Virus record (IMG/VR): IMGVR_UViG_3300042542_001813
Location: 1-34,603 of that record
Source of the DNA: a virus
Strand: one strand, 5' to 3'
Length of the DNA stretch: 34,603 bases
Position 1 is the stretch's first letter. Each line of letters starts with the position of its first letter. This document shows positions 23,584-29,160 of the stretch, piece by piece. Position numbers and translations under genes: made by a program. The notes under the pieces are model-generated. The model saw only the letters and a program-made list of their open reading frames with translations, was not told the origin of the DNA and did no database searches.

Positions 23584-23845
23584 ACAGGCAAAAGTAGAAT
23601 TTGAATCACATCTTCTAATTGGTTTATTCAAATCAACAGTTGAGCAATCAACACAATTAACTGGTAAATTCAAACATAAAATGAAAGCTGATTTTAATCT
23701 ATGGCAAAAACAAGGCTTTAAAATAGTTGAAGAACTTGAAAAAAGAAACATAACAGACGTTGAGTACTTAGATAAAATTGGCGATATTTACCATACTATG
23801 AACTCAAATATGCGTGATGAATTTTACAAAGGTTTGGAAAGTTAA
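23561..23845 (+). CDS. Unknown small protein before the structured leader
   Basis: A 94-residue helical protein (QAKVEFESHLLIGLFKSTVE, then KADFNLWQKQGFKIVEELEK) with no known motif. It overlaps the NinG gene start-to-end by 23 bases. The promoter -33 box for the following RNA lies within its last codons, so its end partly overlaps regulatory DNA. Confidence 0.5.
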   Translation: MEKALTIEQAKVEFESHLLIGLFKSTVEQSTQLTGKFKHKMKADFNLWQKQGFKIVEELEKRNITDVEYLDKIGDIYHTMNSNMRDEFYKGLES

Positions 23846-23863
23846 ATAATTTTTGTATATTTG
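23833..23863 (+). promoter_or_regulatory. Consensus Bacteroidetes promoter (TTTG-N19-TATATTTG)
   Basis: TTTG at 23833-23836 and TATATTTG at 23856-23863 are separated by exactly 19 bases, an exact match to the housekeeping sigma consensus of Bacteroidetes. Transcription should start near 23868-23870, directly at a segment that can form RNA structure. Confidence 0.85.
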
Positions 23864-23866
23864 TAC

Positions 23867-23952
23867 CCGATGAGTAACGGCATCAGTAATAATTATATTT
23901 TAATCCCATTGGTGAGTAGAGCCCGTTACCTCGAAAGCCGATGGGTTTTTTA
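23867..23952 (+). ncRNA. Structured leader RNA or small RNA before the replication genes
   Basis: The RNA starting near 23868 contains two long-range pairings. Stem A pairs GAG-TAACGG (23872-23880) with CCGTTA-C-CTC (23923-23932), 9 pairs and one bulge. Stem B pairs CCCATTGG (23905-23912) with CCGATGGG (23938-23945), followed by TTTTTT: a terminator-like end. Their order is A-B-A'-B', a pseudoknot if both form. In addition CCGATG at 23867-23872 can pair with CATTGG (23907-23912), competing with stem B. This fits a transcription attenuator or riboswitch-like leader for the gene at 23963, or a stand-alone small RNA of about 85 bases. I do not recognise it as a known family. Confidence 0.6.
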
Positions 23953-23962
23953 TTTTATATAA

Positions 23963-24664
23963 ATGGCAAAAAATTTTCCATATTTTAAATTTACTGCTAC
24001 TGAATGGTTAACTGGAGATATAGTTTATGAATCATTAGAGCTTCAAGGTTTATTTATTAATGTTTGTGCTTTATATTGGCAAAGAGATGGTAAATTAACA
24101 ATTGAAGATTTAATTAGAAGATATAAAAATCAATCATTAATTAACGAGTTAATTGATAGATATATTTGGAATGAGCAAGGAAATATATTAATTAAGTTTT
24201 TAGATGAACAGTTAATAGAAGCTAATCATATATCAAAAGTTAATTCAGAGAATGGCAAAAAAGGTGCGGAAGCTAAACGAAATAAAGCGAACGCTAAGCG
24301 ACCGCTTAACGATAGTAAAGCGATTTTAAGCAAAGAAGAAAAAGAAGAAGAAATAAATAAGAATAAGAATAAGAATAAAATAAAAGAATTTGTTTTTCTT
24401 TCTGAATCTGAAATTAATAAATTAAATGAAGAGTTTGCATCACATGAAGTAGAATGGATCCTAAATAAGTTAAATGATTATAAAGCAAGTACAGGAAAGA
24501 AATACAAGTCAGATTATGCTGCAATTAATATGTGGGTTAAAGATGCTTTTAGAAAAGCAAAAGTTGATTTTATTAAAGATAATAATACAAGCGAAGTAAG
24601 AATAGCAACAGCAATGAAAGCAATTGAAAACATTAACTGGGACGATTATACAAACCAACTATGA
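23963..24664 (+). CDS. Replication initiation-like protein (phage O/DnaD-type)
   Basis: A 233-residue protein. The N-terminus (YFKFTATEWLTGDI, LELQGLFINVCALYWQRDG) is the winged-helix-like start common to phage replication initiators. A low-complexity, Lys/Asn-rich linker (about 120-145, NKNKNKNKI) is followed by a C-terminal domain with YKSDYAAINMWVKDAFRKA, which is a typical end for this family and may bind the host helicase or its loader. The middle of the gene contains repeated AAGCGA sites (24284-24323) that may be the origin. It starts just after the attenuator-like leader and overlaps the next gene by 4 bases. Confidence 0.65.
   Translation: MAKNFPYFKFTATEWLTGDIVYESLELQGLFINVCALYWQRDGKLTIEDLIRRYKNQSLINELIDRYIWNEQGNILIKFLDEQLIEANHISKVNSENGKKGAEAKRNKANAKRPLNDSKAILSKEEKEEEINKNKNKNKIKEFVFLSESEINKLNEEFASHEVEWILNKLNDYKASTGKKYKSDYAAINMWVKDAFRKAKVDFIKDNNTSEVRIATAMKAIENINWDDYTNQL
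24284..24323. other. Iteron-like sites, candidate replication origin
   Basis: AAAGCGA (24284-24290), TAAGCGA (24295-24301), its inverted form CCGCTTA (24302-24308) and AAAGCGA (24317-24323) lie inside the initiator gene, at 11-, about 11- and about 11-base steps, close to one helical turn. TAAGCG-AC-CGCTTA is a perfect palindrome. The step is not a multiple of three, so it is not simply a peptide repeat. Lambdoid phages also carry origin iterons inside the initiator gene. Confidence 0.4.
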
Positions 24665-25509
24665 ATCAAATAACAACAACAAATGGATTTTCACCTTTAG
24701 AAGTTGAAGCCATGCAGAAACTAAATGATTATTTAAAAACATTCATTGAAGTAAAAAATGAAGTTAAAATAATTCATAAAGACAAACAGGAAGTATTAAC
24801 TCAACTTTATGCAATCGTAATTAAGACAATTGAATTAAGCGGTGAAAACAAAAAATACAACTTAGATAATCAAACTATTAAAAACGTAGCTGGTTTTGTT
24901 TATGAGTATGTTTTAGAAAATTATAAGGGTGCAACACTATCCGAGCTAAAAAAAGCGTTTAAAATGGGAATAAGTGGTGAATTTGGTGAATTTGTAGGGT
25001 TTGGTACTGTAACATTCACTAAGTTTATTAAAAGTTACATGAGCTATTCAAAAAGAGAACAAGCTATTAAAGAATGGTTTAAATACCAAACACCTACAAC
25101 TGAAAAGCCAATAACTAAGTTTTTTGAGCAAAATTTACAGATAGCTAATTACTTTTTTAATATATGTGAAGAAAAAAACTCAGAAAGATTCCATACAATT
25201 TTAAACCATGAAGACAATGTAATGCACTTACCTTCTATATATGAGTTCCTATATGCTAATTATCAAATATCATTTTCAGATGAAAGCAAAGAAATAATAA
25301 AGAAAAAAGCGAAGATTAAATACAATAATTATATTAAAAAGTCAGGATTAAAAGATGCTGATGCAAAAGGTTATCAAAACATAATTACTTCAGTAATAGA
25401 TAATCAAAACAAAACATTTGATAATTATGTTAAAACACAGGCTTTAATCTTCTTAACTTTAAAACTAAAGCAACAAGGTAAAACATTTGATAATTTAAAA
25501 AGAATATGA
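24661..25509 (+). CDS. Replication-associated protein, unknown
   Basis: A 282-residue basic, helical protein. The centre, NYKGATLSELKKAFKMGISG followed by FGEFVGFGTVTFTKFIKSYM, resembles a region that recurs in the second replication gene of many Bacteroidetes phages and prophages. The order (initiator, then this) suggests a helicase loader or similar partner. No Walker motif is visible, so it is not an ATPase like DnaC. It starts in an ATGA overlap and ends in another one with the methyltransferase gene. The function is inferred from position only. Confidence 0.5.
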   Translation: MNQITTTNGFSPLEVEAMQKLNDYLKTFIEVKNEVKIIHKDKQEVLTQLYAIVIKTIELSGENKKYNLDNQTIKNVAGFVYEYVLENYKGATLSELKKAFKMGISGEFGEFVGFGTVTFTKFIKSYMSYSKREQAIKEWFKYQTPTTEKPITKFFEQNLQIANYFFNICEEKNSERFHTILNHEDNVMHLPSIYEFLYANYQISFSDESKEIIKKKAKIKYNNYIKKSGLKDADAKGYQNIITSVIDNQNKTFDNYVKTQALIFLTLKLKQQGKTFDNLKRI

Positions 25510-26162
25510 AAATACTAAACTTATATGCCTGTTTAGGCGGAAATCGTTATAAATGGAACGAAGTAAAAGAAGATATTGAAGTTACTGCTGTTGAGTTAGA
25601 CTATGAAGCTGCACGATTATATCAAGAGCGTTTTCCTAATGATACAGTAATAGTTGCGGATGCTCATCAATATTTATTAGACCACTTCAAAGAGTTTGAT
25701 TTTATATGGAGTTCGCCACCTTGCCCAAGCCATAGCAAAGTAAGAATAAGCCAAAAAAATAGAGAAACTTTTAAATTTATTTACCCAGATATGAAATTGT
25801 ATGAGGAAGTTATTTTTTTAGATAATTTTTTTGAAGGAAAGTATGTAGTTGAAAATGTTACTCCGTACTATGAACCATTAATAGCAGCTAAAAAAAGAGG
25901 CAGACATTTATATTGGACTAATTTCAATTTACCTACCGACTTAAAAGAACGCAAACTTGATGGCACTTTAACTAATATGATTGATGAAATTGGTGTTTTA
26001 TCTAAATTTCATGATTACGATTTTTATAAATATAAAGGAAATCAAAGAGTTGATAAAATGGCGAGAAATTTAGTTGACTATGAAGTTGGTAAAACAATAT
26101 TTGAAAATGCATTAGGAATAATTAATAAATCAAAAACAAAACAAGTAACCTTAGAACTATGA
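25506..26162 (+). CDS. DNA (cytosine-5) methyltransferase, compact
   Basis: A 218-residue enzyme, shorter than the usual 300-400. It has NLYACLGGNRYKW at residues 5-17 (motif I-like SAM site), the catalytic PPCPSHS at 71-77 (Cys73), the ENV motif at 116-118, and GRHLYWTNF at about 131-140. This is the C5-cytosine pattern. The target-recognition region appears very small and the usual QRR segment is replaced by QRVDKMA. Similar compact phage enzymes exist. It would protect phage DNA or prepare cytosine for later modification. It shares ATGA overlaps with both neighbours. Confidence 0.78.
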   Translation: MKILNLYACLGGNRYKWNEVKEDIEVTAVELDYEAARLYQERFPNDTVIVADAHQYLLDHFKEFDFIWSSPPCPSHSKVRISQKNRETFKFIYPDMKLYEEVIFLDNFFEGKYVVENVTPYYEPLIAAKKRGRHLYWTNFNLPTDLKERKLDGTLTNMIDEIGVLSKFHDYDFYKYKGNQRVDKMARNLVDYEVGKTIFENALGIINKSKTKQVTLEL

Positions 26163-26369: not shown

Positions 26370-26863
26370 TTAGTGAACTTGTAAATAACAAAATCTACAA
26401 ACAAATTACTCGGAATGTATGCCACAATCACGAACTACAAGACGACCTTCATTTTGAAGCTGTTTTAATTATTATTGAAAAGAAATTTGACTTAACAGAA
26501 ATTAGAAACCTTAAGCACTTTTTTTCAGCAGTAGTTTGGAGAACGTGGCATTCAAATAAATTTAGAAAAAAGTATTTTGTAGATCATGTTAAGTTTTTAG
26601 ACAATTTAAACGAGATTATAGAAGAAAAAGAAAATATTGATTATTCAGTATTGATAAACTTTCTCGAAAGTTCACCACAAAATGAAACAGAATTTTATGA
26701 AGTCAATTTATTAAGATTGTATATTTTACATGGCGATGCAAAGAAATTAAGCAATAAAACAAAGATACCTTACAGAACAGTAGCAAACGATATTAAATTA
26801 ATCAAAGACAAACTCAAAAGACAGCACAATGAAAAAAATTCTGATAAAGGCGAATATGAATAA
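26366..26863 (+). CDS. Sigma-70-like phage factor (region 2 and 4-like)
   Basis: A 165-residue protein. Residues about 1-75 are helical and resemble sigma region 2 (an early NHELQDDLHFEAVL helix, then FFSAVVWRTWHSNKFRKKY), and residues about 120-160 resemble sigma region 4 with a helix-turn-helix (LHGDAKKLSNKTKIPYRTVANDIKLIKDKLK). A product of this layout could direct host RNA polymerase to phage late promoters, and the GGTACTTT sites are candidate targets. The resemblance is by layout and not by strong identity; a plain HTH regulator is the alternative. GTG start, coupled to the ORF before it. Overlap with the next gene is 35 bases. Confidence 0.6.
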   Translation: MISELVNNKIYKQITRNVCHNHELQDDLHFEAVLIIIEKKFDLTEIRNLKHFFSAVVWRTWHSNKFRKKYFVDHVKFLDNLNEIIEEKENIDYSVLINFLESSPQNETEFYEVNLLRLYILHGDAKKLSNKTKIPYRTVANDIKLIKDKLKRQHNEKNSDKGEYE

Positions 26864-27869
26864 CCTTAACGGGTTATCTTTTCACCGATTAATAGTTCCA
26901 TTCTCAAAAGTCTCCGACATGATAGACTTTCAATGTGATGTATTTCCAGACTTAGATGTAGCAACTGATGAACAGCTTAAACAGTATTCAGCAGTTGTTT
27001 ATCAAAGAGAAATAGATACAAACGGAAAATCACTAGATATAATTAAAAAATATCATTCATTAGGTATTAAAGTGATATTTGACATTGACGATATTTGGAC
27101 ATTACCTAAAAGCCATTATTTAAGTCGACTTTACGAAATCCATAATATACCAGCTCAAACAGTTGAAATTCTTAAAAATGTAGATTTAGTAATTACGACT
27201 ACCAAACATTTAGCATCTAAGATTAAAAAGTACAATAAGAATGTTGAGGTAATTCCTAACTGTTTAGATCACGAAGACGAACAATGGAAATCAAACAAAA
27301 CTAAAAGCGACAAAGTTAGATTTGGCTACATTGCAGGAATTTTTCACAAAGAAGATATTTCAATCTTAGAAATGCCAATTCGTAAAATATTAAGGCATGA
27401 TATAAACGCTCAATTTGTTTTAGGTGGTTACAATGATAATGCAGATTATAACTATTATGAAAAGGTAATGAGTGGTGGAACTTTAACTGACAAATATCAA
27501 AGAGTTTACAGTTTACCAGTACATGATTACGGTAAGGCTTATGATGAAACTGATGTTAGCTTAATACCATTGCAATCTAACTCATTTACTGAATGCAAAA
27601 GCGAAATAAAGTTACTTGAAGCTGGTTTACATGGCAATCCTGCAATCGTTAGTGATGTACTACCTTATAACATATTCCCAAAAGAAACTGCAATATTTTT
27701 AAATAATAGTGACATTAATGGCTGGTACAAGGCAATAAGAAACCTAAGCAAAGATGAATCAATGAGAAAGGAATATGCAGAAAGTTTACAAAAATATATT
27801 GAAAAACATTATAACATAAACAAATGGACTCAAATAAGAAAACAGATTTTACAATCGGTATTGGCGTAA
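26829..27869 (+). CDS. Glycosyltransferase, GT4-like
   Basis: A 346-residue protein of GT-B type. Segments include NLNGLSFHRLIVPF near the start, VIFDIDDIWTLP, VEVIPNCLD, then FGYIAGIFHKED, and the C-terminal ECKSEIKLLEAGLHGNPAIV (residues about 258-277), which is the nucleotide-sugar binding loop of GT4 enzymes in a modified form. It would transfer a sugar from a nucleotide-activated donor. It begins the glycan block and starts within the sigma-like gene. Acceptor unknown. Similar phage enzymes modify virion proteins, DNA or the host surface. Confidence 0.72.
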   Translation: MKKILIKANMNNLNGLSFHRLIVPFSKVSDMIDFQCDVFPDLDVATDEQLKQYSAVVYQREIDTNGKSLDIIKKYHSLGIKVIFDIDDIWTLPKSHYLSRLYEIHNIPAQTVEILKNVDLVITTTKHLASKIKKYNKNVEVIPNCLDHEDEQWKSNKTKSDKVRFGYIAGIFHKEDISILEMPIRKILRHDINAQFVLGGYNDNADYNYYEKVMSGGTLTDKYQRVYSLPVHDYGKAYDETDVSLIPLQSNSFTECKSEIKLLEAGLHGNPAIVSDVLPYNIFPKETAIFLNNSDINGWYKAIRNLSKDESMRKEYAESLQKYIEKHYNINKWTQIRKQILQSVLA

Positions 27870-28480
27870 CAACAACACCAAATCGTAAAGAATACGTTGA
27901 TAGGTGGTTAGAATACTTTGAGAAGTTTAAACCTTCTAATTACCATCTGCACATTCACGAAGATGTACATTACAAAGGAGTTGCGTACTCAAAGAATCAA
28001 AATTTATACACTTTAAGGGACTGCGACTTTATTTTCTTATTTGACGATGACTGCTATCCATTTGAAAATAATTGGGCTGAATATTTTATTAACTCAGGAT
28101 ATAATCACTTACTATACTTAGAGCCTAGTCATAATTTAAAAGCTAAAATAAACGATTTAGAGATATATCGAGATTGTGGAGGTGTGTTTATATACCTAAC
28201 AAAAGAAGTATTAAATAAAGTAGGTTATTTTAATTCAGAATATGGTCAGTATGGATTTGAACACGCTGGTTATTCAAACAGAATTTACAAAGCAGGATTA
28301 ACCAATGCTCCTTACCAACAATTATCGAATACTGATAAATACATTTGCGCCTTAGATTATATTATTGAACACAAATCAAGTATTCCTGAATATAAAAAAG
28401 GAAAGTTAATAGAAGAAAATCGAAAAGTATTTATAAAGGAATTGCAAAGCGAAACTATTTTTTATAACTTTGAAGAGTGA
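27824..28480 (+). CDS. Glycosyltransferase, GT-A (GT2-like)
   Basis: A 218-residue protein with the N-terminal IGIGVTTTPNRKEYVDRWLE, a DDDCYPF box (residues about 74-80), which corresponds to the DXD metal site, and GFEHAGYSNRIYKAG further on. No membrane segment. This is a family A glycosyltransferase with short C-terminal part. It starts within the previous gene by 46 bases, so translation is tightly linked. Neighbouring genes belong to the same fold class. The sugar is not predictable from the sequence. Confidence 0.65.
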   Translation: MDSNKKTDFTIGIGVTTTPNRKEYVDRWLEYFEKFKPSNYHLHIHEDVHYKGVAYSKNQNLYTLRDCDFIFLFDDDCYPFENNWAEYFINSGYNHLLYLEPSHNLKAKINDLEIYRDCGGVFIYLTKEVLNKVGYFNSEYGQYGFEHAGYSNRIYKAGLTNAPYQQLSNTDKYICALDYIIEHKSSIPEYKKGKLIEENRKVFIKELQSETIFYNFEE

Positions 28481-29160
28481 ACGAACACATACTTTTTAAA
28501 CTAGCAACTCGCAGCAGACCACAAAAGGCAAAAAAAGCAATTGATAATATCATAATGCTTTGTAATTCAATGAATTATACAATCTTAGTTAGCATTGATG
28601 AAGATGACGAAAGTATGTTAGGTTTTAGTTATCCTAATGACAATGTATTCATATCAAGAGGAACTTCAAAAAATAAAATTGATGCTATAAATAGAGACAT
28701 GGATATTTTTGAAGGTTGGGACATTTTAATCAATACTTCAGATGACATGGTATTTGAAATTAAAGGATTTGACAATATAATTAGGCAAGATTTTAAAGGA
28801 AACTTTGATCAAGTTATTCATTATTCAGATGGCTATCAAAAAGGAAATTTAATGACAATGAGTATAATGGGAGTTAATTATTATAAGCGTTTTGGCTATA
28901 TTTATCATCCTGACTATCTTTCTTTATGGTGCGACATGGAAGCTACCGAAGTAGCTAAAATGTTATCTAAATACGAATACAAAGGAGATCAAAAAGTATT
29001 ATTTACTCACAGGCATCCTGCATGGGGTTTATCTGAATTTGATGCACAGTACCAAAAAACAGAAGCACAGCATGTTAATCAAAAAGACTACGAAACTTAC
29101 TTAAAAAGAAAAGCAAAACTATTCAATTTACCCGAACATTTAATATTAAACAAAATTTGA
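28477..29160 (+). CDS. Glycosyltransferase-like protein, GT-A fold
   Basis: A 227-residue protein starting with ILFKLATRSRPQKAKKAIDN and carrying SIDEDDESML and an INTSDDMVF segment (residues about 88-96) in the place of the metal site. WCDMEATEVAKML and FTHRHPAWG occur in the second half. The layout fits a small GT2-like enzyme, though the acceptor part is not recognised. GTG start overlapping the previous stop (GTGA). It ends with a TTGA overlap with the following gene. Confidence 0.58.
   Translation: MNEHILFKLATRSRPQKAKKAIDNIIMLCNSMNYTILVSIDEDDESMLGFSYPNDNVFISRGTSKNKIDAINRDMDIFEGWDILINTSDDMVFEIKGFDNIIRQDFKGNFDQVIHYSDGYQKGNLMTMSIMGVNYYKRFGYIYHPDYLSLWCDMEATEVAKMLSKYEYKGDQKVLFTHRHPAWGLSEFDAQYQKTEAQHVNQKDYETYLKRKAKLFNLPEHLILNKI

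Follow-up and report, generated by a model that had tools for sequence, protein, structure and literature searches.

In the window, by which we mean the whole stretch of DNA that was analysed (a viral record of 34,603 bases), a short segment separates a promoter-like sequence from a gene resembling replisome organisers, and the question is whether this segment encodes a structured RNA and, if so, whether that RNA controls the gene behind it. An earlier note had claimed a structured RNA with its own promoter and a terminator before the replication gene. This claim is supported, and its coordinates for promoter, stem A, stem B, T6 run and replication open reading frame all proved correct on re-checking. 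By comparison with relatives the layout is that of a promoter-like box, a 5′ hairpin (P1), an AU-rich linker and a terminator with a 7-bp apical kiss. The parts in the window are as follows, the counts of pairs with two-sided changes and of paired cells referring to an alignment of 48 elements:

23833..23863, plus strand: promoter-like TTTG-N19-TATATTTG, by sequence pattern (−33 TTTG at 23833–23836, TATATTTG at 23856–23863)
23869..23884, plus strand: 5′ hairpin P1, GATG-AGTAACGG-CATC, with the stem GATG (23869–23872)/CATC (23881–23884) (two-sided changes in 4/4 pairs, 98.9% of cells paired)
23874..23880, plus strand: kissing strand GTAACGG in the P1 loop (7/7 pairs, 95.3% of cells)
23905..23912, plus strand: 5′ arm of the terminator stem P2, CCCATTGG (7/8 pairs, 97.3% of cells)
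23913..23918, plus strand: 5′ side of the conserved internal loop, TGAGTA (invariant in 35/35 aligned sequences, partly by way of the search pattern, which demanded most of these letters)
23919..23921, plus strand: 5′ side of the inner stem, GAG, with its partner CTC at 23930–23932 (3/3 pairs)
23923..23929, plus strand: partner strand of the kiss, CCGTTAC, in the terminator apical loop (covariation)
23933..23937, plus strand: 3′ side of the conserved internal loop, GAAAG (35-sequence alignment, partly imposed by the search pattern)
23938..23951, plus strand: intrinsic terminator, P2 3′ arm CCGATGGG (23938–23945) and T6 (23946–23951) (sequence and covariation)
23963..24664, plus strand: P0001, the replisome-organiser-like gene presumed to be controlled (phrog matches)

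Thus, in the element proper (23869–23951) seven bases of the P1 loop pair with the apical loop of a terminator hairpin that ends in T6. The earlier note had described an A-B-A′-B′ pseudoknot. An interaction of the pseudoknot type is indeed there, but not a plain pseudoknot: since A lies in the loop of a small hairpin of its own and A′ within the terminator apical loop, which is closed by GAG/CTC (23919–23921/23930–23932), A–A′ is a loop–loop kiss.

Judged from the window alone, the promoter and the fold energy are unconvincing, and it is the covariation among relatives that decides. The promoter had been called perfect, and its letters are exact in the window with respect to what we take to be the Bacteroidota-type consensus (TTTG-N19-TATATTTG), but the pattern, with 4 matches in the window where 2.58 are expected by chance, was dropped as stand-alone evidence; in relatives the −33 TTTG is not strictly conserved. 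The single-sequence fold is unremarkable (z −2.0, 7/200 shuffles equally good). When folding is nested, so that the kiss is not counted, the terminator stem is part of the minimum-energy structure in 31 of the 48 elements, and the window is among the 17 that lose it. The alternative then found, a nested GTAACGG/CCGTTAC together with CATCA/TGGTG, was rejected by eye as lacking generality: P1 3′ strands, CTAC for instance, cannot pair with GGUG. A hammerhead or other ribozyme, considered for a slight similarity by eye (CCGATGAG...CTCGAAA), was dropped because the Rfam scan was empty.

Relatives came from two sources. A protein search with P0001 led to 61 loci, the close ones of which have an upstream segment with compensated changes, and pattern scans of IMG/VR returned 58 stretches with the conserved core, 63 with a shorter core and 81 with the inner stem left free. 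After removal by eye of chance matches (L074, L086 and L091 of the 58; L131 of 8 new stretches; L144, L145, L148, L150, L155, L159, L161 and L167 of 29 new ones) the pattern scans of viral contigs gave 82 related stretches, many of them near-duplicates. L158, which has the core but no kiss, was dropped from this tally yet kept in the larger of two alignments. The smaller (A1) contains 35 sequences and leaves out the truncated L092. The larger (A2) started from 48 sources chosen by eye, of which 47 matched, L135 twice, giving 48 rows, 47 of them distinct. The model to which it was fitted included P1, P2 and the inner stem but left out the kiss, which makes the kiss the least biased of the four helices; covariation of the inner stem was measured after the search pattern had stopped fixing it.

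The 35 distinct elements form 97.9% of the pair cells, with two-sided changes in 16 of 22 pairs; in the kissing helix all seven pairs show double changes and none a one-sided change. For the 48 elements the corresponding values are 97.3% and 21 of 22. Shuffled alignments reached four of five measures in 0/500 cases and the fifth in 4/500 with the smaller set, and none of the five in 500 with the larger. When the helices were slid out of register, 28–41% of the cells paired versus 97–98% in the true register; for the larger set by itself the slid values are 28–40%. The 7-nt kiss with its flanking hairpin occurs in 35/35 distinct exact-core elements that have enough upstream DNA, in the form of 11 different kissing sequences. 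One further stretch that looks genuine by eye (L163) gave no match in any of the model searches covering it. Instead of breaking both stems without compensation, which the earlier note had regarded as fatal, the relatives compensate; as to loss of the region, named there as well, some P0001 relatives are without the window's RNA family, but the close ones keep it. We therefore take the paired structure to be as certain as comparative sequence analysis allows. This bears directly on the simplest explanation, an ordinary terminator and an ordinary promoter between transcription units, with the pairing a coincidence. Adjoining terminators and promoters are frequent in compact phage genomes; here, however, the promoter comes before the terminator, and coincidence is excluded by the compensated changes found in all four helices. 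As the covariation of the 48 elements (0/500 shuffles) refutes coincidental pairing for the structure, this explanation has almost no probability left.

A three-way switch, in which CCGATG would act as antiterminator by pairing with CATTGG, had also been proposed and must be abandoned. The pairing is present in the window, but it is not conserved and shows no covariation: in the 35 sequences 67.6% of its cells pair, compared with a shuffle mean of 68.3%, and 401/500 shuffles are as high. From the alignment it is to be regarded as coincidental and local to the subgroup that includes the window. The covariation test, which covered the CCGATG/CATTGG pairing, revealed no antiterminator strand that is conserved, and a classical switch is therefore not visible.

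The conserved letters, GGUGAGUA/GAAARCC, form an internal loop that flanks the inner stem and lies between the two terminator stems; their conservation is partly imposed by the search patterns. Among elements found by a model without imposed letters, L185 and L186 retain most of them and L187 lacks most. Letter comparison suggests an internal loop resembling a bulged-G (loop E) module: AGUA opposite GAA, which we take to be the consensus of such modules (loop E/sarcin-ricin), fits, and the flanking helices covary.

In the collections searched, the family was met with in viral sequence only. A model match was obtained in 17/17 whole viral records, as expected from their having been chosen for the element. 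In a second set, 28 of 38 viral records matched model R2 at E 0.05; nine of the ten without a match are P0001 relatives with other leaders or none, and the tenth is the record of L163. A pattern scan of cellular contigs gave two stretches, neither of them real: by eye L129 and L130 are without P1, terminator arms and T-run, and L130 also failed the computed kiss test. Among 395 genomes of the phylum to which the Xylanibacter record belongs, model R2 found none at E 0.001, a result of little weight given the strict filters and the lack of a positive control. Cultured phages were reached via the neighbouring genes of Cellulophaga phage phi19:1. The element is carried by Olleya phage Harreka_1 (42.0 bits, E 5.8e-7) and by the Flavobacterium phages elemoF and elemoE (40.7 bits, E 3.5e-7), in all three followed by small genes and a replication protein. 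Here the model aligns the terminator half, and P1 and the kisses (GTGGTGG/CCACCAC and GTGGAGG/CCTCCAC) were read by eye. A blastn search of cultured phages with the window element and two others returned chance matches, nothing, or matches to coding parts only; a weak R2 match in phi19:1 itself (E 0.09, L188) turned out by eye to be a plain terminator. In agreement with the earlier note, which knew of no matching family, no Rfam 15 family matched the window or 14 further loci at the gathering threshold, and 19 loci with leaders of the window type or similar gave one tRNA and no other match; at E up to 10 the window element had seven Rfam matches, all below the gathering scores. What emerges is a family of structured RNAs that has strong support and no counterpart in Rfam, confined to viral sequence in the collections searched.

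The box TAnnTTTG stands just 5′ of P1 in 28 of the 48 elements, TATTTATA in 13 others (L067, L102, L134, L136, L139, L142 and L147 among them) and neither in seven, so that the position of the −7 box is kept across most of the family, while the exact −33 TTTG is not conserved. Many of the elements with TATTTATA precede endonuclease-type genes, and the box is perhaps a different promoter type of those phages. The position directly behind promoter-like boxes would suit antitermination of the put kind, in which the nascent RNA modifies the polymerase and so enables it to pass terminators further along the operon. The conserved structure is, however, itself a terminator with a T-run and three invariant T columns, which makes such a function very improbable.

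Closely 3′ of the element, all 48 cases have a same-strand ATG frame of at least 40 codons (that of L117 is cut by the contig end). The distance from the last T-run to the ATG is 0–17 nt in 42/48 elements and 37–42 nt in 6/48, and a separate promoter for the next gene is hardly possible where it is 0–17 nt. P0001 matches phrog_13246, replisome organizer (E 6.1e-16), and phrog_9327, primosomal protein (E 3.4e-5); its best match is phrog_29280, function unassigned (E 3.4e-26), and there is no Pfam match. Behind 41 elements 40 downstream frames were read, and 30 proteins, chosen by eye, were tested. Thirteen of the 30, all from a subset of 20 tested for domains, are of homing-endonuclease type (GIY-YIG, HNH, NUMOD, I-HmuI-like or T5orf172 domains, E 0.001 or better; the match of L186 lies just at the curated cut-off), and four of the ten tested against PHROGs belong to replication families (those of L070, L059, L133 and L121). 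DUF6291 is found in the proteins behind L143 and L070, a KilA-N protein follows L113, and the kiss-less L158 precedes a lysozyme-like protein. No telling match at E 0.001 was obtained for the proteins of L083, L102, L104, L120, L134, L136, L139, L140, L149 and L154; that of L102 has weak HNH matches, that of L134 DUF723 and a treble-clef domain, and those of L139 and L140 are by eye similar to those of L147 and L186. L068 is followed first by a small gene and then by one resembling, by eye, the organisers of L070 and L089. From these matches the next genes appear to be non-homologous and largely of two kinds, replication and homing endonuclease. The same architecture thus precedes two unrelated gene groups.

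Several other features of these loci were observed. In L023–L027 and L044–L059 the match to P0001 is limited to the C-terminal part (residues ~125–141 to 229–233), and the gene that follows the leader in L023 and L025 starts with MRKAINFF; in these two the front part of the P0001-like gene seems to have been exchanged and the leader retained. A small hairpin (TGGTTATCTTAAAACCA-like) precedes by eye the small gene that follows the leader in L065, L068, L081 and L095, and is also present in filifjonk, hemulen, morran, Harreka_1 and phi19:1 (Flavobacterium to Cellulophaga phages). About 100 nt before the P0001 homologue of L039 and L043, ACTCACTA occurs twice with the complementary AGTAGTGAG between, the second copy directly abutting the start codon; the arrangement is a possible translational switch. 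At 25506–26162 and 26829–29160 of the window, a C5-cytosine methylase match covering profile positions 1–83 of 324 only (a fragment?) is followed by three glycosyltransferase-like genes.

An element with its own promoter-like box, a compact closed fold, a terminator and a conserved internal loop suited to be a protein-binding site might also be a free-standing terminated small RNA of ~85 nt that acts in trans as decoy, sponge or regulator, the next gene being incidental. Several findings speak against this. The element is kept directly before same-strand start codons of genes that fall mostly into two functional groups, and little space remains for another promoter ahead of the next gene; the AU-rich linker varies, so that by eye no conserved seed is visible; and relatives carry structured leaders of other sequence at the same place. 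We consider a trans-acting RNA of this kind unlikely, though it is the most serious of the rival explanations.

The leaders of other sequence deserve closer description. Terminators within 600 nt of the gene were sought in 24 P0001 relatives (the window and 23 of the 35 loci in which the gene start was read; 12 near-duplicate or short loci were left out by eye, and L033 and L034 are near-identical), and complementarity to their loops was sought in the 90 nt before the terminator. In 13 of the 24 the terminator loop has at least 7 nt of upstream complement, versus 0.15 expected from shuffles. Six of these 13 belong to the window's RNA family and seven do not; the other 11 relatives fail the strict scan, several having shorter or hairpin-less pairings by eye. 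That the layout is kept without the conserved internal loop argues for a kinetic or physical function of the kiss, in addition to that of any ligand. The Flavobacterium LMO6/LMO9 phages carry another leader, which precedes an early small gene and has three kiss variants read by eye (hemulen GTGAGACG/CGTCTCAC, morran GTGAGAAG/CTTCTCAC, mumin GTGGAACG/CGTTCCAC), and Cellulophaga phages phi19:1 and phi10:1 have yet another of similar layout. Of the 74 distinct matches with kisses of at least 7 nt that a topology scanner gave in 1.37 Mb of loci, some of them overlapping, 42 have the core, and shuffled sequence gave 14 matches in 1.03 Mb; many of the non-core matches are therefore due to chance, and they were used only as leads and only if they lie before genes.

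Further variants were noted on the way. A second subfamily (L003:2903–2994, L037:2906–2994, L041:2907–2994, L125 and L126) has 6-nt kisses, e.g., CGCACA/TGTGCG and CCCGAA/TTCGGG, and a longer first hairpin ending TTAACTAAC; three members occupy the same position ahead of a P0001 homologue, and model R1, in a scan covering 68 loci, sees the subfamily weakly (E 0.009–0.061). Another class of kissing terminators lies 5′ of the P0001 homologue in L029, L030, L035 and L036:2752, with kisses of 8–10 nt that covary by eye (GCGTGAGAAA, GCATCGGAA, GCGTGAGA, GCGTCGGA). Terminators that are branched by eye, and whose two inner hairpin loops both have a complement further upstream, are found in L225 (Cellulophaga phage Nekkels_1, ~1040–1180), L003:560–648 and L057:2209, and represent possible double kissing.

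How might the element work? The attenuator suggested in the earlier note is also what we infer from the sequence, and we would give a cis-acting transcription attenuator a probability of about 0.6. An intrinsic terminator lies, by sequence, between promoter and gene, as it should in an attenuator; an alternative antiterminator fold is not provided by CCGATG/CATTGG, which is not conserved. RNA polymerase would start just 5′ of P1, which would fold first, and the apical loop would kiss P1 as it emerges. Most transcripts would then end at the U-run (~23951), and the downstream gene would be made only by read-through, the extent of which would be set either by timely completion of the kissed hairpin or by remodelling through a binder of the internal loop, candidates being a metabolite or a protein of either host or phage. 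In effect, replication-initiator and homing-endonuclease genes would be kept low or timed. The kiss may either help or hinder termination. In a rough rod model of 47 of the 48 rows (four with an under-called P2) the linker suffices for the kiss and the full terminator together in 40/47, often barely, and seems too short for both in 7/47. With a long enough linker in 40/47, the kiss may coexist with the terminator. Against an attenuator it can be said that transcription coming from upstream genes could also pass a terminator in front of a replication gene. A brake fits with the RNA structures known to restrain T4-type homing endonucleases (PMC2988022).

Genomes with more than one element are instructive with regard to a further alternative. 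G006 (47.5 kb) has three copies and G003 (167 kb) two, and each copy keeps a matching kiss of its own (3/3 and 2/2), which counts in favour of the cis-acting attenuator. All three downstream genes of G006 and one of G003 are of endonuclease type by domain; the start of the other G003 gene resembles the L147 gene. Such differing copies, together with the zero one-sided changes in the kissing helix of the 35 aligned sequences, could be expected of copy control in trans of the RNAI/RNAII kind, in which leaders that have terminated kiss nascent ones of their own sequence group and raise their termination, the rapidly changing kiss being a private address. The cis self-complementarity of each RNA should, however, out-compete pairing in trans; several different copies are found only in G006 and in G003 with its near-twin G429, i.e., in genomes of two kinds; and the two copies of G421, one at each contig end, are identical. 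We regard copy control in trans as improbable.

The element is best classed among the transcription attenuators, as one that has a kissing loop for its basis, and for which no published description was found, most subscription papers lying outside the literature coverage. If it is an attenuator, these phages would have an RNA brake on the start of replication, and homing endonucleases would possess their own portable leader; an internal loop that binds some molecule would serve the phage as a sensor of the state of infection. It is tempting, though doubtful, to go further and see here a large undescribed class of kissing-loop terminators that guards replication and homing-endonuclease genes of Bacteroidota phages. 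In one family of this class, that of the window, the internal loop would sense a host or phage ligand or protein indicative of the stage of infection, and the ever-changing kiss would be a private address that prevents cross-talk, whether among copies or among phages infecting the same cell. Direct testing is possible since members occur in the cultured Harreka_1 and elemo phages, and similar layouts in the LMO6/LMO9 phages and phi19:1.

Of the systems that invite comparison, ColE1 uses loop–loop pairing of ~7 nt between RNAI and RNAII in the control of replication; these are two RNAs acting in trans, whereas here both loops are in one RNA. The put antiterminator RNA of phage HK022 is a leader at the start of early transcription units that is not known to have an internal terminator, whereas the element contains one. 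The T4-type homing endonucleases are alike in that RNA structure limits their expression: this is described for I-TevI, segB and mobE, and seg43(25) of Aeromonas phage 25 has a very stable hairpin, with no function assigned, directly 5′ of the ribosome site (PMC2988022). As far as described there, they differ in lying inside the coding region, as lone hairpins or terminators that lack a kissing partner, and in belonging to a different group of phages (PMC2988022). In the guanidine-IV riboswitch (GGAM-1 motif) two hairpins, one of them being the terminator, form a kissing loop that turns termination off; as the stem elongates, it reportedly shortens the linker and strains the kiss (PMC11611296 and PMC7736828). 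As in the element, a 5′ hairpin kisses the hairpin of an intrinsic terminator. From what these sources report, the guanidine-IV kiss hinders completion of the terminator, and conserved loop nucleotides are needed for the ligand, whereas in the element the kiss covaries freely and the internal loop is conserved. No guanidine-related genes (sugE etc.) are among the 30 tested downstream proteins. Alike in layout, the two are set apart by the conserved part and the genes, and guanidine-IV is the nearest mechanism found in print.
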